From: Mucinivorans hirudinis | GTDB taxonomy: Bacteria; Bacteroidota; Bacteroidia; Bacteroidales; Rikenellaceae | Direction: 5' to 3' | Length of the DNA stretch: 64,000 bases | Assembly: GCA_000723505.1 (NCBI GenBank) | Contig: HG934468.1 | Span: 2,078,798-2,142,797, forward strand | In this document: positions 3,572 to 46,415 of the stretch, piece by piece | How the letters are laid out: each line of letters begins with the position of its first letter | Position numbering within the stretch: the stretch's first letter is position 1 | Position numbers and translations under genes: made by a program | The notes under the pieces: generated by a model | Database searches by the model: none | The model's input: only the letters and a program-made list of their open reading frames with translations | Told to the model about the DNA's origin: nothing

Positions 3572-3609
3572 CAGAGTGTCATTGCAGTGAAAACGGCAAT
3601 GACACTCTG
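3572..3609 (+). terminator. Terminator after glnS
   Basis: CAGAGTGTCATTGC (3572-3585) and GCAATGACACTCTG (3596-3609) form a perfect 14-pair stem with a 10-base loop just after the glnS stop. No long T-run follows, only an AT-rich stretch, so its strength is uncertain. Confidence 0.7.
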
Positions 3610-3723
3610 CTAATATATTGATTTAGAGATAAGTTTTCACTGTATCAAACCTATTTTGGGATATATCGCTGCGTTATAAAACTTATCCCGAAGTCAGGTT
3701 ATTACGCCCGCAATGTTCACGAC

Positions 3724-3779
3724 AATCAAAATCTGATGGCTGAAAATTCCAAAATAACCAATGGCTGATTTTTTGGAGC
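3724..3779 (+). repeat. 56-base intergenic repeat, copy 2
   Basis: Second full copy of the repeat at 61-116, in the same orientation and without gaps. Here CCAAAAT and ATTTTTTGG inside the unit could pair as a small stem. It occupies the middle of the 354-base gap between glnS and the DUF4837 gene. Confidence 0.6.
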
Positions 3780-3821
3780 TTTATAATTTTGTTTTATTAA
3801 AAAATTAATTGTAATTTTGTT

Positions 3822-3829
3822 GGGAGTAA
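3822..3829 (+). promoter_or_regulatory. Possible -7 promoter element for DUF4837 gene
   Basis: TAATTTTG fits the Bacteroidota -7 consensus TAnnTTTG about 80 bases before the start codon. No good TTTG -33 element is seen at the usual spacing, and a second TAATTTTG lies at 3784-3791, so this is a weak call. Confidence 0.3.
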
Positions 3830-3909
3830 AAGTAAGTTTTGCACGCTTTTTGTACTGTCTCTTGTGTGAGGAATCTAACAATCTGAAAAGAACATAAAAA
3901 ACCAACGAA

Positions 3910-4899
3910 ATGAAAAAGTTACTATTTTTTCTATTTGCTATCCTCGTTATGACCTCTTGCGAGAGTTCGGGTGGCGGCATTAGGAGTTTGCCGCCGGCAA
4001 CGGGCACTCCTTATAGCCTTTTAGTTGTCTCATCCAAAGCCGTTTGGGATTCTTCGGTGGGCGATACGGTCAAGTCGATATTCGCTCAAGATGTGGAGAT
4101 GCTCAATATTCCGGAGCCCCTCTACTCCATAATTAACGTTGCACCGTCTCAGGTTACTTCCGTTTTGGATCGCTATCGCAACATCTTCTACCTGATTGTG
4201 AACAAAGAGAAGTACGATAGGACACATATCAATGTGGAGTTTGATAAAAAGGCTGAAGAACAGACGATTATCACCATCTACTCCCCATCTATCGACTCGA
4301 TGACCAACTATATCGGAACCAACGGCGATGTGCTACTAGCGCTTTTGGACAAGAGCGAGCGTGACCGTTATATAACTCGTGCTAAAAAGTATAGCAGCGA
4401 AAGTCTCAAAAAGCAAATTTACGAAAAGTTCGGTTTTCTCATCGACATCCCCTCTAACTATAAGATTCGTAACGAGAAGGATGACTTTATTTGGATATCC
4501 TATGACCCGAGCAGCCTCTCCAATATCGGTTTCACGATATACACTTTCGAGAGTGGCGACGGGTTGGATGTTGTCCGTCCATTGGTTGCTCGTAACGAGG
4601 CTGTTATGAATATCCCCGGCGGAAACGAGGGTTCTTATATGACTACGGAAATGGAGATTGAACCCACCTATAAACGTGTGATTATCAATGGGCAGCCTTG
4701 GATAGAGATGCGCGGTTTTTGGAAAATGCACAAAGATTTCTTGGGCGGACCATTCGTCAATTTCACAACCCAAGACCCGGCAACCGGAAAGATGGTTGGT
4801 ATAGATTGTTACGTGATGTCTCAATCCTACAAGGACGGTATGCGTAACTACATTCGCCAGCTCGAGGCGATGGTGCTTACTCTTAAATTCAAGGAGTAG
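3910..4899 (+). CDS. DUF4837 family lipoprotein
   Basis: A 329-residue predicted lipoprotein of the Bacteroidota-restricted DUF4837 family, function unknown. The signal peptide ends in a lipobox (VMTSC, Cys at about residue 17), so the mature protein is lipid-anchored, probably periplasmic or in the outer membrane. The remainder is soluble, with conserved blocks such as FWISYDPSS and GQPWIEMRGFWKM. It stands alone between two terminators, so it is probably monocistronic. Confidence 0.85.
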   Translation: MKKLLFFLFAILVMTSCESSGGGIRSLPPATGTPYSLLVVSSKAVWDSSVGDTVKSIFAQDVEMLNIPEPLYSIINVAPSQVTSVLDRYRNIFYLIVNKEKYDRTHINVEFDKKAEEQTIITIYSPSIDSMTNYIGTNGDVLLALLDKSERDRYITRAKKYSSESLKKQIYEKFGFLIDIPSNYKIRNEKDDFIWISYDPSSLSNIGFTIYTFESGDGLDVVRPLVARNEAVMNIPGGNEGSYMTTEMEIEPTYKRVIINGQPWIEMRGFWKMHKDFLGGPFVNFTTQDPATGKMVGIDCYVMSQSYKDGMRNYIRQLEAMVLTLKFKE

Positions 4900-4919
4900 A
4901 TATTCGCTTTACTTACACG

Positions 4920-4964
4920 AGGCTGTTCTCTAACTTATTATCTCGAGAACAGCCTTCTTCTTTG
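4920..4964. terminator. Bidirectional terminator between convergent genes
   Basis: AGGCTGTTCTC (4920-4930) pairs with GAGAACAGCCT (4945-4955) around a 14-base loop, followed on the plus strand by TCTTCTTT. It sits between the ends of the DUF4837 gene (plus) and the antiporter-like gene (minus) and probably serves both. Confidence 0.75.
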
Positions 4965-4999
4965 GAAAGCCCTCATTGAAAGGTGATTAGCCTTCATCA

Positions 5000-6415
5000 T
5001 CACGCAATCACCAACTGCCCAATAAATTCCGTCAGCCACTCTGTGCTGACAAATCCGAAGAAGAAGAGGGCGAGCATCATCGCCAGCAGCACCCAAGTCA
5101 CCACTTTGCCCTGTGGCGGATTTTCTATGAGCCGTGTTCTGTCAATGGGTTTTGTAAAAATAGGTAAAACTTTGGCACACAGCCAATAAACAATCGCAAT
5201 TAGAAAGAGTGCTATTGGAAATATAAGCCACCATCTACTTCCCTGAATTAGCTCCGTAAGCATCATATATTCTGAGCGGAATAGCAGCGAAGGCGGCATT
5301 GCAACCAGCCCTATGAATCCCAGCATCAACACTAATGAGCCAAAACGGTTCACAGCGAAGTAGTCACCTATTTTGCCGATTTTGTACGTTCCGTAGCGTT
5401 TGCCTATGTCGCTAAGTTGAAGGAATACAACGGATTTAATCACCGTATGCGCTAGAGAGTGGAGTAGTGCTGCCCACACCCCGATGCCGCCAATTCCGAG
5501 CCCAAGAATCGTCAGCCCGCTATTTTCTACTGTTGAGTATGCAAATAGTCTCTTATAGTTCTGAGTGCGCCCCATATAGACAGCCGCCACCAACAGCGAC
5601 AACACACCGGCAATTAAAAGCACGCTACGTACCCATCCGAAAACCTCGCCATTACCGCTCATCACCCCGTAGACGCGATAGATAGCCACAAAGCCGCCTG
5701 CCACCATTGCCGAGGAGATGAATGCGGCGGCGGGTGCCGGCGCGGCGTGGTTAGCATCCACCCCCACGGTAAAGAGCGGAAAAAGTTCCATCTTTGCTGT
5801 GTAACCGGCTAATATAAAGATAAATGAAAGTTTAAGGTATAGCGAATTGCCTCCGGCAACTGCGGTTTTCAGGGAGTCGTAAGAGAGATTCATCTCCCCA
5901 TTCTTTGCTAGTGATGCGCCGAGCATCAATATCCCGAGGTAGGCGATGGCTATGCCTACTGAGCTGATAAAGATATACTTCCAAGTAGCTTCGAGGGAGC
6001 GTACCGAGCGGCGGTGGTAGGTGAGTGCCGCTGCTGCCAAGGTGGTAGCCTCTAAGAAAATCCAGGTGACAGTGATGTTATTGCTCAAAAAAACACCTAT
6101 CAATGCTATTGCAAGAGCAACGAGCGAACAGTAGTATATTCTTAGTTGGCGGATGTTCTCCTCGTCTAGGTAAATGGCTGATTGAACGACTGTAAGCACT
6201 CCAATCATAGCGGTAAGCACAAGATATGTGATTCCCAGTTTATCGAAATTAAAGAACCAAAGTTCGGTGCTCGCCTCGCCAAAGGCAGCAGCAAGGGAAC
6301 AGCATACCAAAGTTGCAAAGAAGATGGCAGCCGGCAACGAAATGCCTTTTTTACTTTTGGCAAGCAGTGTAGTAGTGCAGCATATTGCTGCAAGTATTAC
6401 TATTATGATGAGCAT
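5000..6415 (-). CDS. Proton-conducting antiporter-like membrane subunit (HyfF/NuoN type)
   Basis: A 471-residue polytopic protein of the proton_antipo_M family, which includes NuoL/M/N, HyfB/D/F and MrpA/D. Conserved features are the buried glutamate in IFLEATTLAAAALTYHRR (near residue 122), the lysine stretch LAGYTAKMELFPLF near residue 205 followed by VDANHAAPAPAAAF, and the later YKRLFAYSTVENSG block. These best match hydrogenase-4 subunit F-like proteins. Such subunits normally sit in clusters with other complex I-like genes. Here none is present: the gene is last in a minus-strand run after rsmI, 58 bases away. Partner complex unknown. Confidence 0.75.
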   Translation of the reverse strand: MLIIIVILAAICCTTTLLAKSKKGISLPAAIFFATLVCCSLAAAFGEASTELWFFNFDKLGITYLVLTAMIGVLTVVQSAIYLDEENIRQLRIYYCSLVALAIALIGVFLSNNITVTWIFLEATTLAAAALTYHRRSVRSLEATWKYIFISSVGIAIAYLGILMLGASLAKNGEMNLSYDSLKTAVAGGNSLYLKLSFIFILAGYTAKMELFPLFTVGVDANHAAPAPAAAFISSAMVAGGFVAIYRVYGVMSGNGEVFGWVRSVLLIAGVLSLLVAAVYMGRTQNYKRLFAYSTVENSGLTILGLGIGGIGVWAALLHSLAHTVIKSVVFLQLSDIGKRYGTYKIGKIGDYFAVNRFGSLVLMLGFIGLVAMPPSLLFRSEYMMLTELIQGSRWWLIFPIALFLIAIVYWLCAKVLPIFTKPIDRTRLIENPPQGKVVTWVLLAMMLALFFFGFVSTEWLTEFIGQLVIA

Positions 6416-6473
6416 CTATCGATACTTAATTGTGCGGTGCTTGATGCTCCGTTTTCTATTTGTGCGTAATGCG

Positions 6474-7145
6474 TCATTCTTTCAACCCTTTAACCACCAC
6501 CACAATCTCCCCGCGAGGGTCATTATTTGAAAAATATTCCGCAACTTCGGTGAGTGTGCCGCGAATGGTTTGTTCAAATTTCTTACTGATTTCGCGGCTC
6601 ACTGAACACTCCCGCTCAGCACCGAAAAACTCGGCGAATTGCTGCAAAGTTTTCACCAAGCGGTGGGGCGACTCATAGAAAATCATTGTCCGCTCCTGTG
6701 TACAGAGTTTGGCAAGCAGCGTTTGCCGCCCCTTTTTCACGGGTAAGAACCCCTCGAAAACAAACTTATCCGAGGGTAATCCGCTCACAACCAATGCCGG
6801 AACAAAAGCTGTGGCTCCGGGTAGGCACTCAACGGTGATGCCGGCATCAACGGCACGGCGAACGAGCAGGTAGCCGGGGTCGGAAATGGAGGGTGTTCCG
6901 GCATCCGAAATCAACGCAACGGTCTGCCCCGCCGACATCCGCGCCACAACTGCATCCACCGTTCCGTGTTCGTTGAACTTGTGGAATGAACCCATCGGTT
7001 TGTTCACATTTAGGTGCTTGAGCAGCACTCCGCTTGTGCGCGTATCTTCGGCAACGATATAATCCACCTCGCCCAGCAGTCGCGCCGCCCTCAGAGTTAT
7101 ATCCTCCAGATTGCCCACAGGCGTTGGTATGACATAGAGTTTCAT
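6474..7145 (-). CDS. rsmI: 16S rRNA 2'-O-methyltransferase RsmI
   Basis: SAM-dependent tetrapyrrole-methylase-fold enzyme that 2'-O-methylates C1402 of 16S rRNA. Diagnostic blocks are YVIPTPVGNLEDITLRA at the N-terminus, VAEDTRTSG, ALISDAGTPSISDPGY and FYESPHRL. At 223 residues it is short compared with many RsmI proteins, which carry an extra C-terminal domain, but it ends normally in GEIVVVVKG. Its ATG overlaps the aroA stop as TAATG, which indicates translational coupling. Confidence 0.95.
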   Translation of the reverse strand: MKLYVIPTPVGNLEDITLRAARLLGEVDYIVAEDTRTSGVLLKHLNVNKPMGSFHKFNEHGTVDAVVARMSAGQTVALISDAGTPSISDPGYLLVRRAVDAGITVECLPGATAFVPALVVSGLPSDKFVFEGFLPVKKGRQTLLAKLCTQERTMIFYESPHRLVKTLQQFAEFFGAERECSVSREISKKFEQTIRGTLTEVAEYFSNNDPRGEIVVVVKGLKE

Positions 7146-9064
7146 TAAGATAGCTTTTGCGCCAGCAACTCTATGAAATCAAGTGCCGCTTTATTATCGG
7201 GCTTCCAACGGTAGGTCTCACTTATATATATAAGTGCTGCGTCCAAATCGGGCATATTGCCGAGCTTGGCAGCTTCGCGGAAGAAAAATTGCTCTTCGTT
7301 CAAAAATAGTTCGCGGATATATTGAGCCTTTTGAGTGGCAGGAATCATCTGTCCGAAAAGTTCTTCAAGCTCTTCTTGCTCCTCGTCCTCTTCTTGCTCC
7401 TCGTCCTCTTCTTGTTCCTCGTCCTCTTCTTGCCCTTCCTCCTCTTCTTGCCCTTCCTCCTCTTCTTGTTCCTCGTCCTCTTCTTGTTCCTCGTCCTCTT
7501 CTTGTTCCTCGTCCTCTTGCTCCTCTTCAATCACCCCCATAGCAACATCTTCAATCTCTTCTCCTTCCTCCTCCTTTTCAATCTTCTCCTCTATTTCCAC
7601 CTCTTTCTCCTCAATAATCCCCACTTCCTCCTCTTCAATCATCTCCACCTTCTCAACCATTTTCCCCATCCCCAACACCTCACAATAGAGCTCGCGCAGC
7701 TTTTCGAGCACAATATCCTTTTCGATTTGCGTTACCGTGCCACCCTGTTGCCAACTGTCCATTATCGAAGTTATTACCTCCAAACTACTCCGGTTTTTCA
7801 TCTCCGTACTATTTTTAATTGTCAATAAATCCAAATCGTCCCAAAATTGCGGGTAGGACTTTCCTACAGCCTCTGCCCGTTGGATTGTAATTGTAACAGG
7901 GAGTATCAGTGCCGCCACAGCCGTAGCCATCGCAATGCGGTGGTCGTTGTGGCTGTCCACCTCCACATCTCCCCTAACAGCAGAACCGCCTCTGACCAAC
8001 ATCACATCTTCGCCCGAAATATCCACCGCAATACCCATCTTGCCAAACTCAACTGCCAGAGTCGTTGCGCGGTCGCTCTCCTTGTGGGTGAGGCGATTAG
8101 TGCCCACAATGCTACTCTCGCCCCGGCAGGCGGAAGCCAGTGCCACCAATGCCGGAAAGAGGTCGGGACAGTGCGTGGCATCAAACTCGAAGGCGCGCAA
8201 ATGCTCGGGTTTAGATATTGTAACATCGTTACCCCGAATATCAATTACAGCCCCTGCCGCCGCAAGTGCCTCCATAATTTTGCGGTCAGCCTGCCGAGAT
8301 TGGGGGTTGAGGTTTTTGACAGTAACCTTGCCCGCTATTGCCCCCGCAACCAGCAGGCACGAAGCCCCGCTCCAATCACCCTCCACATCATAAACTGTCG
8401 GTACATATTTCTGTTTCCCCTCTATTCTGAAAATTTTGTACTCCTCGTTATCAATCTCTATGCCGAATTTTCCGAGCATTTCCAGGGTCATATCTATATA
8501 TGGAATGCTTTGCAGATTATTGACCCTCAACACACTATTACCCGATACCACGGGCAGAGCCATCAGCAGCCCGGTGATAAACTGTGAGCTTAGCGAGCCG
8601 TCCACCTCCACATATCCCCCGCGCAACTTTCCCCGCACCCGAATCGGGAGATGGTCATCGTTGGTTGCTACCTCCACCCCCAACTTCTCGAGCGTGGGGG
8701 CGATGCCCACCATCGGGCGCGAGAGAATCGACCCCTTACCCTTGATGGTAATCTGCTCGCTGCCGAGCGAAGCAATCGGCGCGAAGAGGCGGGCTGCGAG
8801 TCCCGACTCTCCAACATTAATAGTGTCGTGCACGGGGGCAAAACCGCCCTCAATGGTGTAAGTCGTGCCATTGTTGCGAATCTTTGCGCCGAGTATCTCC
8901 GCTACTGCAAGAGCCGCTTCGGTGTCGTTGCAGAGCGCCACGTGGTTGAGTGTTGTTGTCCCTCCGGCGAGCAGTGAGGCGGCTATGGCGCGCTGTGCGT
9001 AACTCTTGGAGGTGGGGGCGGTAACCGTGCCGCCGACCTCTGCTCTACTGATTTGCTTTTTCAT
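7145..9064 (-). CDS. aroA: EPSP synthase with acidic repeat and C-terminal extension
   Basis: Residues 1 to about 418 are a complete 3-phosphoshikimate 1-carboxyvinyltransferase (shikimate pathway): TSKSYAQR near residue 18, GESGLAARLFAPIA, LTHKESDR and NDHRIAMATAVA are all there, and the domain closes at SYPQFWDDLDLL. The frame continues without a stop into about 220 more residues: a helical piece from Met422, a Glu/Asp/Gln-rich tract near residues 485-575, and a helical tail containing AALIYISETYRWKP. That tail resembles a separate small Bacteroidota hypothetical protein, so this may be a natural fusion; a second start at Met422 (7801) is possible. It overlaps the aminotransferase gene by 20 bases. 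Confidence 0.93.
   Translation of the reverse strand: MKKQISRAEVGGTVTAPTSKSYAQRAIAASLLAGGTTTLNHVALCNDTEAALAVAEILGAKIRNNGTTYTIEGGFAPVHDTINVGESGLAARLFAPIASLGSEQITIKGKGSILSRPMVGIAPTLEKLGVEVATNDDHLPIRVRGKLRGGYVEVDGSLSSQFITGLLMALPVVSGNSVLRVNNLQSIPYIDMTLEMLGKFGIEIDNEEYKIFRIEGKQKYVPTVYDVEGDWSGASCLLVAGAIAGKVTVKNLNPQSRQADRKIMEALAAAGAVIDIRGNDVTISKPEHLRAFEFDATHCPDLFPALVALASACRGESSIVGTNRLTHKESDRATTLAVEFGKMGIAVDISGEDVMLVRGGSAVRGDVEVDSHNDHRIAMATAVAALILPVTITIQRAEAVGKSYPQFWDDLDLLTIKNSTEMKNRSSLEVITSIMDSWQQGGTVTQIEKDIVLEKLRELYCEVLGMGKMVEKVEMIEEEEVGIIEEKEVEIEEKIEKEEEGEEIEDVAMGVIEEEQEDEEQEEDEEQEEDEEQEEEEGQEEEEGQEEDEEQEEDEEQEEDEEQEELEELFGQMIPATQKAQYIRELFLNEEQFFFREAAKLGNMPDLDAALIYISETYRWKPDNKAALDFIELLAQKLS
7372..7530 (-). 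repeat. 18-base tandem repeats encoding the acidic tract of AroA
   Basis: About nine near-identical 18-base units (plus-strand form TCCTCGTCCTCTTCTTGT with small variants) encode Glu/Asp/Gln hexapeptides in the aroA frame. The unit length is a multiple of three, so copy changes would keep the frame open. Such a tract is prone to slippage. Confidence 0.85.
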
Positions 9065-10214
9065 TTCTTGCTCTCTCTAATTGGTTCATAGCCTTCTCTA
9101 TAACCGCTCTTGGCGAGCCTACATTCATCCGCTGAAAGCCCCTGCCGCCATCGCCGAAAATCACACCGCTCGTAGTTCCCAACCCCGCTTTCTTGACAAT
9201 AAATTCATTAAGCTCGGCTTGTGTCATTCTCCACGCCGAAAAATCCAACCACATCAGATATGTGGCTTCTGGACGGTGGCACTTAACCTCAGGGAGATTT
9301 TTACGTAGGAAATCAATCACGTAGTCGATATTACCACACAAGTACTCTTTCATCGAATCCATCCACTCATCCCCATCGTTATATGCCGCCATAAGTGCCT
9401 CTATACCAAAAATATTTCCGCTATCCAAATGAATTTTGTGTAACTCCTGATTATACTCTTTCAGAATTTTTTCCGACGAAGAGATAGCAACGGCTGTCGA
9501 GAGTCCCGCCAAGTTGAAACTCTTGCTCGGGGCAATAAAAGTTATCGTATTGTCGGCTATTTCCCGCGAAATTGATGCTATATGTATATGTTTATAAGGC
9601 TTATAGACAAAATCAGAATGTATCTCGTCCGAAATAATCCTAACGCCGTATTTTACGCACAAATCCCCCATTCGTTTTAGCTCTGCCTGCGAAAAACATC
9701 TGCCCGTTGGGTTGTGCGGATTGCAGAGAATGAAGGCTTTGGAGTGCTTTAATTTTTCTTCAAAATCCTCGAAATCAATTCTATAACCTTGCTCTGTGTT
9801 TAGTAACTCGTTATTTATTACTTGGCGATTATTAGCCTTAATCACCATTGCAAAGGGGTGATAGACAGGTTGTTGAATCAGTATGCCATCGCCCTCACTT
9901 GTGCAGGAGAGCATTGCGAATGTCACCCCCACCACCACGCCGGGTGAGAATGCCAACCATTCGTCCTTGATTTGCCATCCGGCACGCCTTGCGACCCAAC
10001 CCTTAATGGCATCGTTATATGCCTGTGAGCGGTAGGTGTAGCCGAAAACGCGGTGCTCGACTCTGCGTTTAAGTACCTCAACTATAACATCTGCCGAAGC
10101 AAAATCCATATCTGCAACCCATAGGGGTATCACATCATCAGTGCCGAAAATGCGCTCAAGGCTGTCAAACTTTTCGCAACTTGTTCCGCTACGGTCAATA
10201 ATTTCGTTAAACAT
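9045..10214 (-). CDS. MalY/PatB-type PLP aminotransferase
   Basis: A 389-residue fold-type I PLP enzyme of the MalY/PatB family, typically a cystathionine beta-lyase-like C-S lyase. The N-terminus has IPLWVADMDFASADVI, the substrate loop has the LCNPHNPTGRCFS block, IISDEIHSDFVY carries the PLP-interacting aspartate, and APSKSFNLAGLSTA carries the Schiff-base lysine. It is first in the minus-strand run with aroA (20-base overlap). It could supply a sulfur-amino-acid step or act as a general aminotransferase; the substrate cannot be read from the sequence. Confidence 0.88.
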   Translation of the reverse strand: MFNEIIDRSGTSCEKFDSLERIFGTDDVIPLWVADMDFASADVIVEVLKRRVEHRVFGYTYRSQAYNDAIKGWVARRAGWQIKDEWLAFSPGVVVGVTFAMLSCTSEGDGILIQQPVYHPFAMVIKANNRQVINNELLNTEQGYRIDFEDFEEKLKHSKAFILCNPHNPTGRCFSQAELKRMGDLCVKYGVRIISDEIHSDFVYKPYKHIHIASISREIADNTITFIAPSKSFNLAGLSTAVAISSSEKILKEYNQELHKIHLDSGNIFGIEALMAAYNDGDEWMDSMKEYLCGNIDYVIDFLRKNLPEVKCHRPEATYLMWLDFSAWRMTQAELNEFIVKKAGLGTTSGVIFGDGGRGFQRMNVGSPRAVIEKAMNQLERARNEKANQ

Positions 10215-10235
10215 AATTTGGAGTAATATAATCTA

Positions 10236-10243
10236 CAAAAATA
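10236..10243 (-). promoter_or_regulatory. -7 promoter element for the aminotransferase-aroA-rsmI run
   Basis: On the minus strand TATTTTTG matches TAnnTTTG, 22 bases upstream of the aminotransferase start. It lies back to back with the plus-strand element at 10256-10263 in a 77-base divergent gap. Confidence 0.45.
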
Positions 10244-10255
10244 GAAAAAATTCCG

Positions 10256-10263
10256 TACCTTTG
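10256..10263 (+). promoter_or_regulatory. -7 promoter element for the pseudouridine synthase gene
   Basis: TACCTTTG, an excellent match to the Bacteroidota -7 box TAnnTTTG, lies 28 bases before the ATG at 10292. The same TACCTTTG octamer occurs before the yitT-like, rsfS, cobalamin-riboswitch and yicC transcription units in this window. Confidence 0.7.
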
Positions 10264-10291
10264 TGGCGTACAAAATAATAATTTCTAAAAA

Positions 10292-11911
10292 ATGTCAATC
10301 GAAAGACCAAAAGGTAGTTTTTTCCGTCGCGATGACTCAAAAGCTACGCCCGAAAGCCGCCCCGAGAGAGCGGAACACAAACCCCGTTTCAATGATGGCG
10401 AGAAACGCGAGTGGAAGCCACGTAACAATGACGACCGTCCCCGTTTCAACGACGGCGAAAAGCGCGAGTGGAAACCCCGCTCGAACGACGACCGCCCACG
10501 CTTCGGTAGCGATAAACCACGCTTCAACGATGGCGAAAAGCGCGAGTGGAAACCCCGCTCGAACGACGACCGCCCACGCTTCGGTAGCGATAAACCACGC
10601 TTCAACGATGGCGAAAAGCGCGAGTGGAAACCCCGCTCGAACGACGACCGCCCACGCTTCGGCAGCGACAAACCACGCTTCAATGATGGCGAAAAGCGCG
10701 AGTGGAAACCGCGTAACAATGACGACCGCCCACGCTTCGGCGGCGACAAACCACGCTTCAACGACGGCGAAAAGCGCGAGTGGAAACCGCGTAACAATGA
10801 CGACCGTCCACGCTTCAACAGCGACAAACCACGCTTCAACGATGGCGAAAAGCGCGAGTGGAAACCGCGTAACAATGACGACCGTCCACGCTTCAACAGC
10901 GACAAACCACGCTTCAACGATGGCGAAAAACGCGAGTGGAAACCCCGCTCGAACGACGACCGCCCACGCTTCGGCAGCGACAAACCACGTTTCGGCGGCG
11001 ACAAACCACGCTTCAACGATGGCGAAAAGCGCGAGTGGAAACCCCGCTCGAATGACGACCGCCCACGTTATCCACAAAACTCACAAAATTCTCAACCCAC
11101 CGAATCCAAGCCCCGCACTTTCCTCACCCGCGAACGCAAACCACAAATCAATGAAAAACACGTTAGCCCCAAGCAGGAGAGTATCGGACCGGATACTCCG
11201 ATAAGGCTCAATAGATTTATCTCTATGTCGGGTGTATGTTCGCGCCGAGAGGCTGACGAGTTGATTACGGCTGGTCAGGTTACTGTCAATGGTCAGGTTG
11301 TAAGCGAGATGGGTGTGAAGGTGACCAAGCGCGACGAGATATGCCTGAACGGCGAGCGTCTCAAGGGCGAACGTAAGGTCTATATTATTATGAATAAGCC
11401 CAAGGGGTATGTTACCACAACGGAAGACCCCAATGCCGACAAGACGGTCATAGACCTATTGAAGGGGCAGGTCAAGGAGCGGGTCTATCCTGTGGGGCGT
11501 TTGGATAAGAATACCACCGGTGTGTTGTTGCTCACCAACGATGGCGAGCTGACCAATCTACTCACCCACCCGAGCTATAATAAGAGTAAGATTTACCACG
11601 TTTTCTTGAACAAACCCTGCACGGACGAAGATATTGTAAGCCTCAAACGCGGTTTCGAGTTGGAGGATGGCTTCATCAAGGTCGATAGTGCGGAGTTTGT
11701 TGAGGGGGCAAAGGCTGACGAGGTTGGCATCGAGATACACTCGGGACGTAACCGCATCGTGCGTCGTATGTTCGAGCACTTGGGATACGACGTTGTGAAG
11801 TTAGACCGCGTATTCTTTGCAGGTTTCACTAAGATGGGTCTGCGCCGCGGTTTTTGGCGGCATCTGACCACTCGCGAGGTGTCCAATCTGCTTTCGGATA
11901 ACTATAAATAG
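10292..11911 (+). CDS. rluB: RsuA/RluB-family pseudouridine synthase with repeat-rich N-terminus
   Basis: The C-terminal ~235 residues form a normal rRNA pseudouridine synthase: an S4 RNA-binding domain (IRLNRFISMSGVCSRREADE, near residue 304), then the catalytic domain with the aspartate at residue 405 in VGRLDKNTTGVLLL and the HSGRNRIVRRMFEHLG block. Family members make a pseudouridine in rRNA. Residues ~30-265 are a disordered, Arg/Lys/Asp/Trp-rich array with nine copies of the core NDGEKREWKPR, normally in a 26-residue unit. Basic low-complexity N-termini are common in Bacteroidota homologues, but this array is unusually regular. RluB is the closest subfamily; RsuA-like specificity is not excluded. 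Confidence 0.9.
   Translation: MSIERPKGSFFRRDDSKATPESRPERAEHKPRFNDGEKREWKPRNNDDRPRFNDGEKREWKPRSNDDRPRFGSDKPRFNDGEKREWKPRSNDDRPRFGSDKPRFNDGEKREWKPRSNDDRPRFGSDKPRFNDGEKREWKPRNNDDRPRFGGDKPRFNDGEKREWKPRNNDDRPRFNSDKPRFNDGEKREWKPRNNDDRPRFNSDKPRFNDGEKREWKPRSNDDRPRFGSDKPRFGGDKPRFNDGEKREWKPRSNDDRPRYPQNSQNSQPTESKPRTFLTRERKPQINEKHVSPKQESIGPDTPIRLNRFISMSGVCSRREADELITAGQVTVNGQVVSEMGVKVTKRDEICLNGERLKGERKVYIIMNKPKGYVTTTEDPNADKTVIDLLKGQVKERVYPVGRLDKNTTGVLLLTNDGELTNLLTHPSYNKSKIYHVFLNKPCTDEDIVSLKRGFELEDGFIKVDSAEFVEGAKADEVGIEIHSGRNRIVRRMFEHLGYDVVKLDRVFFAGFTKMGLRRGFWRHLTTREVSNLLSDNYK
10379..11066 (+). repeat. 78-base tandem repeat array in the pseudouridine synthase gene
   Basis: Nine near-perfect units of about 78 bases (26 codons), the first two shortened and the last lengthened by an extra DKPRFGG. 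Neighbouring units match almost base for base, not only at the protein level, which points to recent duplication or gene conversion. Variation is concentrated at GS/GG/NS and RSN/RNN positions. Confidence 0.95.
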
Positions 11912-42318: not shown

Positions 42319-42349
42319 TTGGTGAAATCCATAATAAGATGTACCTTTG
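42319..42349 (+). promoter_or_regulatory. Promoter of the cobalamin-riboswitch unit
   Basis: TTGG (42319-42322) and TACCTTTG (42342-42349), with 19 bases between them, resemble the -33 and -7 boxes. Transcription would begin just before the riboswitch aptamer. Confidence 0.65.
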
Positions 42350-42357
42350 CGCTGCGA

Positions 42358-42545
42358 TGGTTTCCGAATCATACTCTTTCGTTGTGATTAGGAATTAAAT
42401 GGGAATGCCGTGAAAGTCGGCAACAGTTCCCGCTGCTGTAAGTTTCAATCCTTTTTCGAGGATTATTTGTTTTGACAATCTTTGCCACTGGCTTTTCGGA
42501 GCCGGGAAGGCGTTAAAACAGAAACGAGTCAGAAGACCTGCCTTC
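42358..42545 (+). promoter_or_regulatory. Cobalamin riboswitch
   Basis: The conserved core is plain: GGGAATGCCGTGAAAGTC (from 42401) with CAGTTCCCGCTGCTGTAA, then GCCACTGGC (from 42484), GGAGCCGGGAAGGCG, and the B12 box AGTCAGAAGACCTGCC (42527-42542). It would bind adenosyl- or methylcobalamin and lower expression of the downstream genes. A possible expression platform is AAGGCAGG (42597-42604), which can pair with CCTGCCTT of the B12-box end (42537-42544). Confidence 0.95.
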
Positions 42546-42710
42546 GCCTTTCAGATTTTGCAGTCTACGGGAAATGGACATTTTGAATCAACAAATAAGG
42601 CAGGAGCTTCATATACTTTTACGTTTAGAAAATTCCGGCGCTTCGTTTGCTGTAAAGTCTGATTATTATGATTTTTAATCAATTAACAATAGTCAAACTT
42701 AAATACAGAA

Positions 42711-43298
42711 ATGATGAAAAAGGAAAAACTAACCCTTAGATTTGGAGCAATCACTCTTATCGTATTGTTTGCCGCACTGAGCAGACTCATTCCGCACCCG
42801 AGCAATTTCGCACCTATCGGTGCTATGGCGCTTTTCGGAGCGGCCTACTACTCGAAACGCTATCTTGCGTTCCTAATTCCTATTTTCTCTATGTGGATTA
42901 GCGACCTCATCCTTAATAATGTGGTATACGGTGCATATTTCGACCATTTCGTTTGGTTTTACAGTGGCTCAATTTTTACGTATGGTGCTTTTGCTTTAAT
43001 CGTGGTTTTTGGGATGTTTTCACTTAAAAAAATCCGTGTAATGAACCTTGCTTTATCTGCTCTTTCCGCATCGGGGATATTCTTTGTTGTATCCAATTTT
43101 GGAGTATGGTTGTCGTCAGGAATGTACCCTCACACTTTTGGCGGATTGACTGCTTGCTATGCCGCGGGTATTCCATTTTTCCACAACACCATACTCGGTG
43201 ATTTTGTCTACACGGGAGCTATGTTCGGCATCTTTGAATGGTGTGTAAGAAGAGTCCCTCAACTGAGACCATTTCCTATCGAGCCAAGTAATAAGTAG
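42711..43298 (+). CDS. DUF6580 family putative transport protein
   Basis: A 195-residue integral membrane protein with about five or six hydrophobic segments and no large soluble domain. The N-terminal SRLIPHPSNFAPIGAMALFGAAYY and SMWISDLILNN blocks are typical of DUF6580, and the size and small-residue-rich helices recall ECF-transporter substrate-binding (S) subunits. It is the first gene after the cobalamin riboswitch, so a role in uptake of B12, a B12 precursor or cobalt is a reasonable inference. No ECF ATPase or T subunit is in the window. A double ATG leaves two equal starts (42711, 42714). Confidence 0.82.
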   Translation: MMKKEKLTLRFGAITLIVLFAALSRLIPHPSNFAPIGAMALFGAAYYSKRYLAFLIPIFSMWISDLILNNVVYGAYFDHFVWFYSGSIFTYGAFALIVVFGMFSLKKIRVMNLALSALSASGIFFVVSNFGVWLSSGMYPHTFGGLTACYAAGIPFFHNTILGDFVYTGAMFGIFEWCVRRVPQLRPFPIEPSNK

Positions 43299-43323
43299 AA
43301 TAGTCTGCTCAAAATTTTCGGTT

Positions 43324-43346
43324 CTTTGTCATCCGCCCCTGTTATG
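43324..43346. repeat. Small REP-like hairpin
   Basis: TTTGTCA followed by CCCC pairs with GGGG and TGACAA around a short loop, with a bulge of four bases. Related to the 40450-40496 hairpin. It lies between the DUF6580 and propeller-lipoprotein genes, where no promoter is visible, so the riboswitch probably controls both. Confidence 0.5.
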
Positions 43347-43450
43347 GGGTGACAAGGAGGTGTATTATGTCTAATAATAAGTGTGTTAAGTGAATCATTG
43401 GCGGGCTTTTGCGTAGGCACGCGAAGAATAAATTAATTACTAATCAAAAA

Positions 43451-45175
43451 ATGAGAAAAATGAAAACGAGATTTTTATGGCTATTAGTCATTGCACTATG
43501 TATCGGATTGACTGCTTGCAGCAAAGGGGAGAATCCAAACATTGAAATCCCCAAGGAGTTTACCGAAGTAACATTCACCGAGGGTATAACTAATCAGACA
43601 GTAACCTTTGAAGCCAATAAATCGTGGGCGATTGTTGTAACGGATACTAAAGCGGATGAGGTCACTTGGTTGACAGTCTCTCCCACTAAGGGGGATGCCG
43701 GGAAGGCAACACTAACGGTTACGGCTCAGCATAACTATTCACGACATCAACGTAACACCTATCTTAAGATAGCAGTTGATGGCTTAGTAAGAACCATTCC
43801 GATAACGCAACTTGCCGCAATACCGGTAATCGAGGACGACAAACCGTCGGCGGTAGTTCAGTCAAAAGGCTTCTTTGTTGTCAATGAAGATTGGTTTGGT
43901 CGCGATAACGGCACGGTTAACTATTTCCAAAAAGAGGGCAATAATTACACTGCCTCATATCGTGCTTATCGTGCAGCCAATCCTGCGCAGAGCGATTGGC
44001 TCGGTGTCACTTCTGAGCATGCTATTGTATGGGGTGATAATGTTTACTTTAGCTCCAAAACGGGAAATAGTTTTGTTGTTGCCGATGCCAAAAGTTTGAA
44101 AAAGAAAGCAATCGTCACCACCATTGGCGGTGACGGCAGGTCGTTTGTAGGTATTGACGATACCAAAGGATATATAGGGCATTCCGCAGGTATGACCGTG
44201 TTTGATATCTCGAGGCTGCAAATTGGTAAAAAGATCGATGGAGTGAGCGGTCAAATTGGAACAATGGGTTCTATTCAAGGACGAGTATTTGCTATTTCAC
44301 AACAAAACGGGTTATATGTCATCAACGCGAAGACAGATGTTTTGGAGCAGACCATTTCGGGTTCATACAACACATTAGCCATAAGCAAAGATGGTAATGT
44401 GTGGGTTGCCGGCTCTTCGAAATTGATAAAATTGAATCCATCGACACTCGATAAAGAGGAGTTTGACTATCCGGAAGGTGCAAAAATAGGTGGCAGCTGG
44501 GGGGCTTGGAACGCGGGCAGTATGTGTGCCAGTACTCAGCAAAATGCATTGTATTGGGTTGCAAGCGGTAAAGTTGTCAAATATGATATTGATGCCAACA
44601 CAACCAATCCATCTCTATACACCTTGGGTAAAAGCGAATACGGCACTCAGTTGTCTATATATGGAGCCGGACTGCGTGTCGATCCATTGACCGACGAATT
44701 AATATTGACTGTAAAACACAGTGGTTGGGGCGAAAATGGAGCTTATAATTGGATATACAAACTCAATCCAGATGGACGGGAGCTTACCAACTTCAAAGTC
44801 AAAGGTGACAACGGTACCGCTGCAAGCTGGGGTGGCAGTGCAAAGGACTGGGACGGTAAATATTTTTGGTTTCCGGCTATGCCTTTCTTCGAGGATGCCA
44901 ACAAGCCACAAATTCTAATCAATCAGATTTTGCTAAAAACAAATGGGAAGTACGAAGTAGATTTAAATGAGAAAATAGTGGATTACGACAACACCAAAGC
45001 CTCGATTCTAAAATCTATTGTTTTGGAAAATACCGATTTGGCTACTGCTGTTCTTGATGGTGGTAAACTAACTGTAATTTCAGGGGCTAAGCCGGGTGTA
45101 ACCTCTGCCACACTTACAGTTATTTCTAACGGAGTGCGTGTAAGCAAAACGATACGAGTTGACGTGGAAGAGTAG
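43451..45175 (+). CDS. BACON/beta-propeller lipoprotein, BtuG-like
   Basis: A 574-residue lipoprotein (GLTAC lipobox about residue 22). Residues ~35-125 are a BACON domain (ANKSWAIVV, WLTVSPTKGDAGKATLTV). From ~135 to 500 lies a YncE/DUF5074-type propeller (FFVVNEDWFGRDNGTVNYF, VWGDNVYFSSKTGNSFVVAD, DPLTDELILTVKHSGWGENG). The last ~65 residues form a strand-rich Ig-like end. In Bacteroides, BtuG surface lipoproteins with this propeller bind B12 very tightly beside BtuB. Riboswitch control and fold make this a likely surface B12 binder, though no BtuB is adjacent. Start chosen at 43451; 43460 is equally possible, 43409 less so. Confidence 0.8.
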   Translation: MRKMKTRFLWLLVIALCIGLTACSKGENPNIEIPKEFTEVTFTEGITNQTVTFEANKSWAIVVTDTKADEVTWLTVSPTKGDAGKATLTVTAQHNYSRHQRNTYLKIAVDGLVRTIPITQLAAIPVIEDDKPSAVVQSKGFFVVNEDWFGRDNGTVNYFQKEGNNYTASYRAYRAANPAQSDWLGVTSEHAIVWGDNVYFSSKTGNSFVVADAKSLKKKAIVTTIGGDGRSFVGIDDTKGYIGHSAGMTVFDISRLQIGKKIDGVSGQIGTMGSIQGRVFAISQQNGLYVINAKTDVLEQTISGSYNTLAISKDGNVWVAGSSKLIKLNPSTLDKEEFDYPEGAKIGGSWGAWNAGSMCASTQQNALYWVASGKVVKYDIDANTTNPSLYTLGKSEYGTQLSIYGAGLRVDPLTDELILTVKHSGWGENGAYNWIYKLNPDGRELTNFKVKGDNGTAASWGGSAKDWDGKYFWFPAMPFFEDANKPQILINQILLKTNGKYEVDLNEKIVDYDNTKASILKSIVLENTDLATAVLDGGKLTVISGAKPGVTSATLTVISNGVRVSKTIRVDVEE

Positions 45176-45179
45176 TGAT

Positions 45180-45235
45180 AAGTGGTGAAAAATTATTGCC
45201 GCAAAAAACATTACAGCAATAATTTTTCACCACTT
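45180..45235 (+). terminator. Terminator after the propeller lipoprotein gene
   Basis: A perfect 20-pair stem (45180-45199 with 45216-45235) and a 16-base loop, then AAATTTTTATTT. It ends the riboswitch-controlled unit before meaB. Confidence 0.85.
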
Positions 45236-45262
45236 AAATTTTTATTTCCCCCCATATTATAC

Positions 45263-45317: not shown

Positions 45318-46415
45318 ATGGCTCATTACGAAGAACATCATAGAGAGACTTTTGCAGATTCAGCACTCGTTGTCAATCACGGCATAGAGCAGCCGCCTGT
45401 GGTTAATCCTAAATTCCATCGTCGGCAACGGGCGCAATATACTGTTGATGAATTTGTTGATGGTATTCTTTCGCGCAATATGGCAATACTTTCTCAGGCT
45501 ATCACAATGGTCGAGAGCTCGCGCGAGGAGCATCAACTCATCGCCCAGCAGATTATTGAGCGTTGCTTGCCTTACACTCGAAACTCCATAAGGATTGGTA
45601 TTACGGGTGTGCCGGGTGCGGGTAAATCCACGTTTATTGAGGCTATCGGCACAAAGGTTACCGCTCTCGGGCATCGGCTGGCGGTGCTTGCCATTGATCC
45701 ATCCTCGGAGCGGAGCAAGGGGTCGATTCTGGGAGACAAAACTCGTATGGAGACCTTGGTGCACAATCCCGATGCCTTTATCCGTCCCTCTCCTTCGGCG
45801 GGGTCGCTGGGTGGGGTGGCACGTAAGACACGTGAAAGTGTGGTGCTTTGTGAAGCAGCCGGTTATGATGTTATATTTATTGAGACCGTGGGTGTGGGGC
45901 AGAGTGAAACGGCAGTCCACTCGATGGTGGATTTGTTCTTATTGTTGCAGATTTCCGGTGCGGGCGATGAGTTGCAGGGTATCAAGCGCGGCATTATGGA
46001 GATGGCGGATTTGATTGCCATCACCAAGGCGGACGGCGCTAACCTCCAAAAAGCAGAACTTGCAAAAGCGCAAATTTCCAATGCGCTGACACTCTTTCCG
46101 ATGCCGGCTTCCGGCTGGAAGCCGCGCGTATACACAACCTCATCCACCGAAGGGGCGGGTCTGATGGAGCTATGGCTTGGTATTGAGGATTTCTTGAAGC
46201 ACACCAAGGTTAATGGATACTTCTATTCCAACCGTGCGCGCCAATCTAAGTGGTGGATGTATGAGACTGTAAACGCTTCTCTGCGCGATAGCTTTTATAA
46301 CTCTCCGGTCATCGAACCTCTCCTGGCTCACTATGAAGAGCAGATTTTGGGCGAAGAGATTAGCAGCTTCGTTGCGGCAAATAGGCTGCTGGAAACCTAT
46401 TTCGGCAGTCGTTAG
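45318..46415 (+). CDS. meaB: Methylmalonyl-CoA mutase-associated GTPase MeaB
   Basis: A 365-residue G3E-type GTPase of the MeaB/ArgK family, the chaperone that gates cofactor loading and protects adenosylcobalamin-dependent methylmalonyl-CoA mutase. Walker A is GVPGAGKST (97-105); further blocks are IDPSSERSKGSILGDKTRM, RPSPSAGSLGGVARKT, FIETVGVGQSE and ITKADGANL. Complete, with the C-terminal dimerisation helices. The mutase genes are not in the window. A run of nine C follows the stop (46416-46424). Confidence 0.95.
   Translation: MAHYEEHHRETFADSALVVNHGIEQPPVVNPKFHRRQRAQYTVDEFVDGILSRNMAILSQAITMVESSREEHQLIAQQIIERCLPYTRNSIRIGITGVPGAGKSTFIEAIGTKVTALGHRLAVLAIDPSSERSKGSILGDKTRMETLVHNPDAFIRPSPSAGSLGGVARKTRESVVLCEAAGYDVIFIETVGVGQSETAVHSMVDLFLLLQISGAGDELQGIKRGIMEMADLIAITKADGANLQKAELAKAQISNALTLFPMPASGWKPRVYTTSSTEGAGLMELWLGIEDFLKHTKVNGYFYSNRARQSKWWMYETVNASLRDSFYNSPVIEPLLAHYEEQILGEEISSFVAANRLLETYFGSR

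Follow-up and report, generated by a model that had tools for sequence, protein, structure and literature searches.

We analysed a stretch of 64,000 nucleotides from Mucinivorans hirudinis (contig HG934468.1, positions 2,078,798 to 2,142,797; hereafter the window), in which a cobalamin riboswitch precedes a gene for a DUF6580 membrane protein and a gene for a propeller lipoprotein (42341-45236). The riboswitch aptamer lies at 42341-42559 (+) and matches RF00174 over its full length (cmscan, model positions 1-189, 104.3 bits against a gathering score of 31.5, expectation value (E) 5e-25), so that both the sequence and the structure of this aptamer are present; it is the sole Rfam match above the gathering threshold in the window. 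The DUF6580 gene follows at 42711-43298 (+) and encodes 195 residues with six transmembrane helices (PF20221, 188.4 bits against a cut-off of 27). The lipoprotein gene at 43451-45175 (+), scanned against Pfam from 43448, encodes 574 residues with a BACON domain and a DUF5074 domain (322.6 bits against 27.2). An intrinsic terminator-like hairpin stands at 45179-45236 (+), with a minimum free energy of -27.4 kcal/mol and a z of -8.46 against 200 shuffles, and 3' of it is an AT-rich tract containing a run of five T. These results confirm the riboswitch, two genes and strong terminator that an earlier note had described from the sequence. The same note had stressed the lack of BtuB and BtuFCD, which holds for the two-gene unit, where we find neither a BtuB/TonB receptor nor BtuFCD, and fails for the genome, where a BtuB1/BtuG1-type pair and BtuF-, BtuC- and BtuD-like genes lie under other riboswitches.

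The AlphaFold (AF2) model of the DUF6580 protein has six helices and a predicted local distance difference test (pLDDT) score of 96.3. Foldseek ranks 1 and 2 are the two structures of BtuM from Thiobacillus denitrificans, 8ovv and 8c7p (probability 1.00, though E is no better than 0.066 and 0.14); ThiT and further S-components of energy-coupling factor (ECF) transporters rank below them. VIA-align likewise puts BtuM on top among solved structures (Z 14.0, root-mean-square deviation 3.5 over 167 residues), followed by FolT (Z 12.6), ThiT (11.1) and CbiM/NikM-type chains (9.7-10.0), and ranks 1-21 are all S-components or CbiM/NikM metal-transporter relatives. A Z of 14 is the typical best score for mostly helical models that have no clear match and is weak by itself, so the support rests on ranks 1-21 being all of S-component type with BtuM at their head. 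Taken together, the model and both searches support an ECF S-component fold, as the earlier note had proposed.

In the alignment that underlies this model, of the window protein with 75 relatives (76 rows), N32, F124, N129, W133 and P155 are invariant, and the commonest cysteine, C149 at the start of the sixth transmembrane helix, is present in 60 rows. The pocket residues of BtuM are given as H28, D67, Y85 and R153 in the accessible text of PMC6072759; the likeness in numbering of the first three to H29, D65 and Y91 of DUF6580 was rejected as evidence.

An S-component fold would also be expected if the protein were the S-subunit of a conventional ECF transporter and shared a module encoded elsewhere. 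We regard this as very unlikely for DUF6580, since group II S-components work with EcfT and EcfA, no EcfT or CbiQ matched at E<=0.001 in the complete M. hirudinis genome (the only genome searched), and the AxxxA motif of helix 1 is present in only 6 of the 76 rows. DUF6580 might instead transport cobalt, like CbiM or NikM, and be regulated by B12. Cobalamin riboswitches are known to control cobalt importers, and CbiM/NikM-type chains do align to the model. These chains rank well below BtuM, however, the genome has no CbiQ match, and relatives of known cobamide-binding lipoproteins occur in the same operons as DUF6580, which makes this reading highly improbable. Cobalt and cobalamin transporters are both named in the available text of PMC2211319.

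BtuC is a member of the FecCD permease family, and we compared the distribution of DUF6580 with that of FecCD. A search for BtuC orthologues with the M. hirudinis protein was too narrow, reaching 21 of 247 genomes at >=300 bits and overlapping with DUF6580 in two (G000 and G390). Because a distant BtuC would merge with other FecCD proteins, we counted every FecCD permease at E<1e-40 instead. Counted as both / DUF6580 only / FecCD only / neither, the split is 19/100/174/3 in a phylum sample of 296 genomes that we take to be Bacteroidota, with DUF6580 over the cut-off in 119 and FecCD in 193 (Fisher p 8e-55); it is 8/53/169/17 in 247 genomes of the order (p 3e-30) and 4/29/80/4 in 117 genomes when one is taken per family (p 6e-19), p values that overstate independence, given the shared ancestry of the genomes. 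The DUF6580 match of phylum genome G062, below the cut-off, was entered as absent. Five families (f3, f15, f24, f69 and f77) each hold a DUF6580-only and a FecCD-only genome, and the swap therefore happened more than once. A riboswitch only a few kb away was noted by eye for some FecCD genes among the rows listed (G463, G368 and G517 are examples). Genomes with DUF6580 are not B12-free, because a cobalamin riboswitch occurs somewhere in 55 of the 61 DUF6580-positive genomes of the order and the B12 domain of MetH, at E<1e-20, in 18 of 27 DUF6580-positive, FecCD-negative family representatives (G389, G396 and G313, the last at E 1.1e-5, were entered as lacking it). DUF6580 thus seems to take the place of the standard B12 pump in about one third of the sampled phylum genomes.

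Gene neighbourhoods were compared in two sets of relatives. The named loci are the best 80 of 560 confirmed DUF6580 candidates and form a biased set; the order loci, taken as an unbiased sample, are the 63 outside M. hirudinis out of 64 above-threshold matches, which come from 61 of 247 genomes. The order loci span about 11 kb on average and are often cut by contig ends. Riboswitches were called with our own covariance model, built from 13 sequences and only 16 base pairs, which replaced a regular expression for the B12 box that was too strict, and the thresholds for B12 marker genes were set within the analysis. Of the 80 named loci (best 80 of 560), 38 have a riboswitch, a B12 marker gene or both with DUF6580. 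Over the 132 distinct loci of the pooled sets, clusters of BtuB-like receptors appear in 16, BtuG-like propellers in 11, MetH in 10, and CobT and CobS in 4 each. The arrangements vary: riboswitch, BtuB, BtuG, two lipoproteins and DUF6580 in L047; riboswitch, BtuB, DUF6580 and BtuG in L056; riboswitch, DUF6580 and BtuB in L053; and riboswitch, TonB receptor, DUF4465 and DUF6580 in L060. DUF4465, a domain with known cobamide binders among its proteins according to the accessible part of PMC12751083, adjoins DUF6580 in both L055 and L060. DUF6580 stands directly 5' of MetH in five loci (L077, L088, L094, L104 and L111), and the pair of the window recurs in L050, where a BACON + DUF5074 lipoprotein follows DUF6580. 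By record titles the family is found mostly in Bacteroidota groups and also in Planctomycetota, Fibrimonas of Fibrobacterota, Arenimonas, Thermomonas and others.

CobT/CobS lies beside DUF6580 in L063, L084 and L119, and also in L176 and L185, and M. hirudinis itself has CobU, CobT and CobS, as might be expected if DUF6580 imported a B12 precursor (cobinamide or the lower-ligand base) in place of intact cobamides. We consider precursor import quite unlikely: BtuB-like, BtuG-like and MetH neighbours are commoner than CobT/CobS, the best fold match is cobalamin-bound BtuM, and the mutual exclusion with the BtuC family suggests that the complete cobamide is carried.

Several observations on these loci stand apart from the question of substrate. 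Two Fibrobacterota loci contain short matches to the cobalamin riboswitch of about 90-100 nt (L046 1932-2028; L048 687-781 and 3948-4037), possibly a reduced variant. Upstream of DUF6580 in L052 are two divergent cobalamin riboswitches, back to back, at 7350-7644 (-) and 7699-7892 (+). A Balneolaceae locus (L059) holds a whalefall-1 RNA (RF01762) at 2352-2407. In part of the order the setting is a housekeeping one, with DUF6580 near mutL (26 loci between L156 and L212) or near a rhomboid protease gene (24 of the 132 pooled loci).

The M. hirudinis genome is a single contig of 3,149,227 bases, 99.96% complete, with one copy of DUF6580 and six cobalamin riboswitches, that of the window and five others (L007-L011). 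The riboswitch of L008 is followed by a TonB receptor, a DUF5074 lipoprotein and a pair of fimbrillin-like proteins, of which one carries DUF4465. The receptor matches BtuB1 of Bacteroides thetaiotaomicron (8blw_A, E 6e-134) and the lipoprotein is of the BtuG1 type (match to BtuG1 at about 1e-38). A two-gene uptake system that needs no BtuB, the minimal arrangement imagined in the earlier note, would be in keeping with the lack of BtuB in the unit, and is the reading to which we give the least credence: M. hirudinis has a BtuB1-type receptor and its BtuG partner under a different riboswitch, and the unit itself has no gene for passage through the outer membrane. In L009 the riboswitch is followed by CobO, a diphthamide-synthase-like protein, a BtuF-like protein, a FecCD permease and an ATP-binding cassette (ABC) ATPase, and further on by a histidine phosphatase, a TonB receptor, CobU and CobT, with CobS nearby on the opposite strand. 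That receptor is of unclear type and was not assigned to BtuB, which ranks lower among its solved matches than the colicin I receptor and some others. The L007 riboswitch lies ahead of an anaerobic ribonucleotide reductase, with MetH further along. L010 has a riboswitch at 10985-11238 and then a lone DUF5074 lipoprotein at 9735-10892, and L011 a weaker riboswitch (47 bits, 11302-11494) ahead of a SusC/SusD-type cluster with a GH18-like protein (4008-11132).

L008 encodes, at 3594-5159, a Mfa_like_1 (fimbrillin-like) domain fused to DUF4465, the domain of known cobamide binders, within a BtuB-BtuG riboswitch locus. L010 has the look of a one-gene surface-binder unit, with no receptor or permease seen alongside. 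A SusC/SusD-type target, as in L011, is unusual for a B12 switch, and the site could be false or decayed.

The lipoprotein of the window begins in the manner of such proteins, with a signal and a lipobox identified by eye and Cys at position 23, and carries a BACON domain, the DUF5074 propeller and a C-terminal tail that appears Ig-like by eye. Its closest sequence match by phmmer is 9s6c (E 6.5e-20), the structure of BT_1486 from B. thetaiotaomicron titled 'B12 Binding protein - BtuK1'; at E<=1 only 9s6c and 8va4 are reached, and no chain of BtuG1, BtuG2 or BtuG3. The 17 top-ranked chains of a fold search are all BtuG or BtuK1 structures, if 3dsm is counted as BtuG, as it is in the available text of PMC6143338, and BtuK1 has the highest identity among them at 22% (about 22-24% across searches). 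VIA-align gives Z 30-33 for BtuG-type chains and 30.3 for BtuK1, values at which fold alone says little because many unrelated propellers also exceed Z 26. The model is weak overall (pLDDT 62.1) and good in the propeller core only, and its alignment consists of 12 divergent rows. Judged by sequence, the protein is BtuK-like rather than BtuG-like, which corrects the earlier note. It shares with BtuK1 both sequence kinship and a place in a B12-riboswitch operon (the latter as described in the accessible part of PMC12751083), and differs in standing behind DUF6580, in a unit with no TonB receptor, and not in a btuB operon. The BtuG proteins share its propeller fold; they differ in lying beside btuB, and M. 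hirudinis has a separate BtuG1-type protein in L008. According to the same partly accessible source, BtuK1 binds cobalamin tightly and its close relative BtuK2 does not, so that cobamide binding by the window lipoprotein, assigned by analogy, is likely but unproven.

We think it probable that the unit is a B12-repressed second route for cobamides and that its DUF6580 protein is a BtuM-like cobamide importer of a kind that often replaces BtuFCD. A corrinoid is the best-supported reading of the substrate, given BtuM as the top structural match, B12-related neighbours in some relatives and the FecCD exclusion; the earlier note had named cobalamin, cobinamide or cobalt, and of these cobalt loses ground with the low rank of the CbiM/NikM chains. 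When intracellular B12 is low, the riboswitch would permit expression of both genes, an OFF-logic assumed by analogy with that reported for Bacteroides cobalamin riboswitches in the accessible parts of PMC8941943 and PMC6143338. The BtuK-like lipoprotein, presumably at the cell surface, would capture cobamides outside the cell, and a TonB receptor encoded elsewhere, for which the BtuB1-type receptor of L008 is the first candidate, would pass them to the periplasm. DUF6580 would bind the cobamide at the periplasmic face and carry it over the inner membrane with no ECF module, as BtuM does; the ligand, the transport itself, its energy source and the hand-over by the receptor are all putative. 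DUF6580 would serve in place of BtuFCD in most of the other genomes that carry the gene. BtuFCD is a three-part ABC system proposed here to share with DUF6580 the step of inner-membrane cobamide import, and its FecCD permease family nearly excludes DUF6580 when strong matches alone are counted. In M. hirudinis, which has a FecCD BtuC as well, DUF6580 would be an additional route that comes into use, along with a surface binder, when B12 is scarce. We lean, with less assurance, towards a broader statement, that DUF6580 proteins are widespread single-protein cobamide importers which need no ECF module, have repeatedly replaced BtuFCD and bind their ligand by a chemistry unlike the cysteine ligation of BtuM.

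A number of observations weigh against this interpretation, in addition to the ordinary Z score of the BtuM match, the shared ancestry behind the p values and the failure of BtuK2 to bind cobalamin. No BtuM chain was found from the DUF6580 sequence at E<=10, with phmmer or with two alignment profiles. The cobalt-binding cysteine that is invariant in BtuM, as given in the available text of PMC6072759, has no conserved counterpart, as none of the cysteines is invariant in the 76 rows and 13 rows are free of Cys. The conserved positions lean only modestly to the periplasmic half, which was assigned by hand from helix order and charges (22 of the top 30 against 96 of 173 overall, p 0.02). The exclusion also softens under a looser count: 25 order genomes have weak FecCD matches only (E 1e-4 to 1e-9), 22 of them DUF6580-positive, and 14 of the 25 pass the Pfam cut-off (191 genomes over the cut-off, 177 strong). 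With all 25 counted as FecCD, the order split becomes 30/31/172/14 (p 2e-12), weaker but persistent, and the phylum search for FecCD was blind to such matches. M. hirudinis itself carries both DUF6580 and a BtuFCD-like set. As to neighbourhoods, a cobalamin riboswitch is near DUF6580 in 27 of the 80 named loci (best 80 of 560), a low share, and 42 of these 80 have neither riboswitch nor B12 marker; mutL is near DUF6580 in 26 of the 132 pooled loci. In the order, 57 of the 63 loci have no riboswitch nearby and 6 have one, where fewer than one would be expected by chance (a rough estimate from riboswitch counts per genome). Proximity to a riboswitch was dropped as a general argument for the role of DUF6580 at these frequencies. 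Finally, FecCD permeases also import siderophores and haem, and the exclusion is no proof about B12.

The earlier note had held that DUF6580 genes lying mostly away from B12 riboswitches would tell against its proposal, and in the order this is literally what we find. In our view such loci do not refute a B12 role, because most of these genomes have no strong FecCD permease and would need the gene constantly; perhaps the riboswitch is missing near DUF6580 in most of them because it is the only route. The same loci could also be cited for the idea that the exclusion simply follows the loss of siderophore or haem import in some lineages and that DUF6580 is mostly unrelated to B12, serving for example in sensing, as could the named loci that lack B12 markers and the counting of FecCD as a family, not established as BtuC genome by genome. 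S-component folds do occur in sensors and in MreD, according to the accessible text of PMC11109136. We nevertheless judge this explanation unlikely, since the five families named above each contain genomes of both types, only 3 of the 296 phylum genomes have neither DUF6580 nor FecCD, and B12-related neighbours recur in several settings.

On balance, then, cobamide import by DUF6580 remains the reading we prefer, with BtuM as its nearest known parallel. The two share the six-helix S-component fold, the M. hirudinis genome gave no EcfT, and some DUF6580 members lie beside btuB. Besides the contrasts already given, BtuM is mostly proteobacterial (PMC6072759, in the part available), whereas the DUF6580 relatives that we fetched are mostly from Bacteroidota. 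Because no kinship is recognisable in sequence and a conserved counterpart of the cobalt-binding cysteine is missing, we do not class DUF6580 as BtuM, and say that it may work like it.

Just past the terminator, on the same strand as the uptake unit, lies meaB (45318-46415 (+); PF03308, 333.8 bits; NCBIfam NF006958, 467.6 bits against 329). Its product is a methylmalonyl-CoA mutase GTPase, a helper of that B12 enzyme; the earlier note had left this gene unmentioned.

Both kinds of machine are known already, BtuM as a solitary B12 S-component and BtuK/BtuG as surface binders. We found no paper on DUF6580 or PF20221 in the open-licence literature, with subscription journals mostly outside the search, and the titles, abstract openings and passages available from the open-licence BtuM literature do not name the family. 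By that search, what is new is the assignment of DUF6580 to B12 import, its reach and its exclusion with FecCD. With the fold of BtuM, frequent B12 company and exclusion with the family of BtuC, DUF6580 is a concrete and testable importer candidate. A large family of this kind would help in studying how such a bulky molecule is transported by an S-component on its own (PMC11109136, in its accessible text). If the broader statement above holds, DUF6580 would fill much of the gap in inner-membrane B12 transport of B12-dependent bacteria that lack BtuCD; the assignment would also change predictions of B12 uptake capacity in microbial communities.

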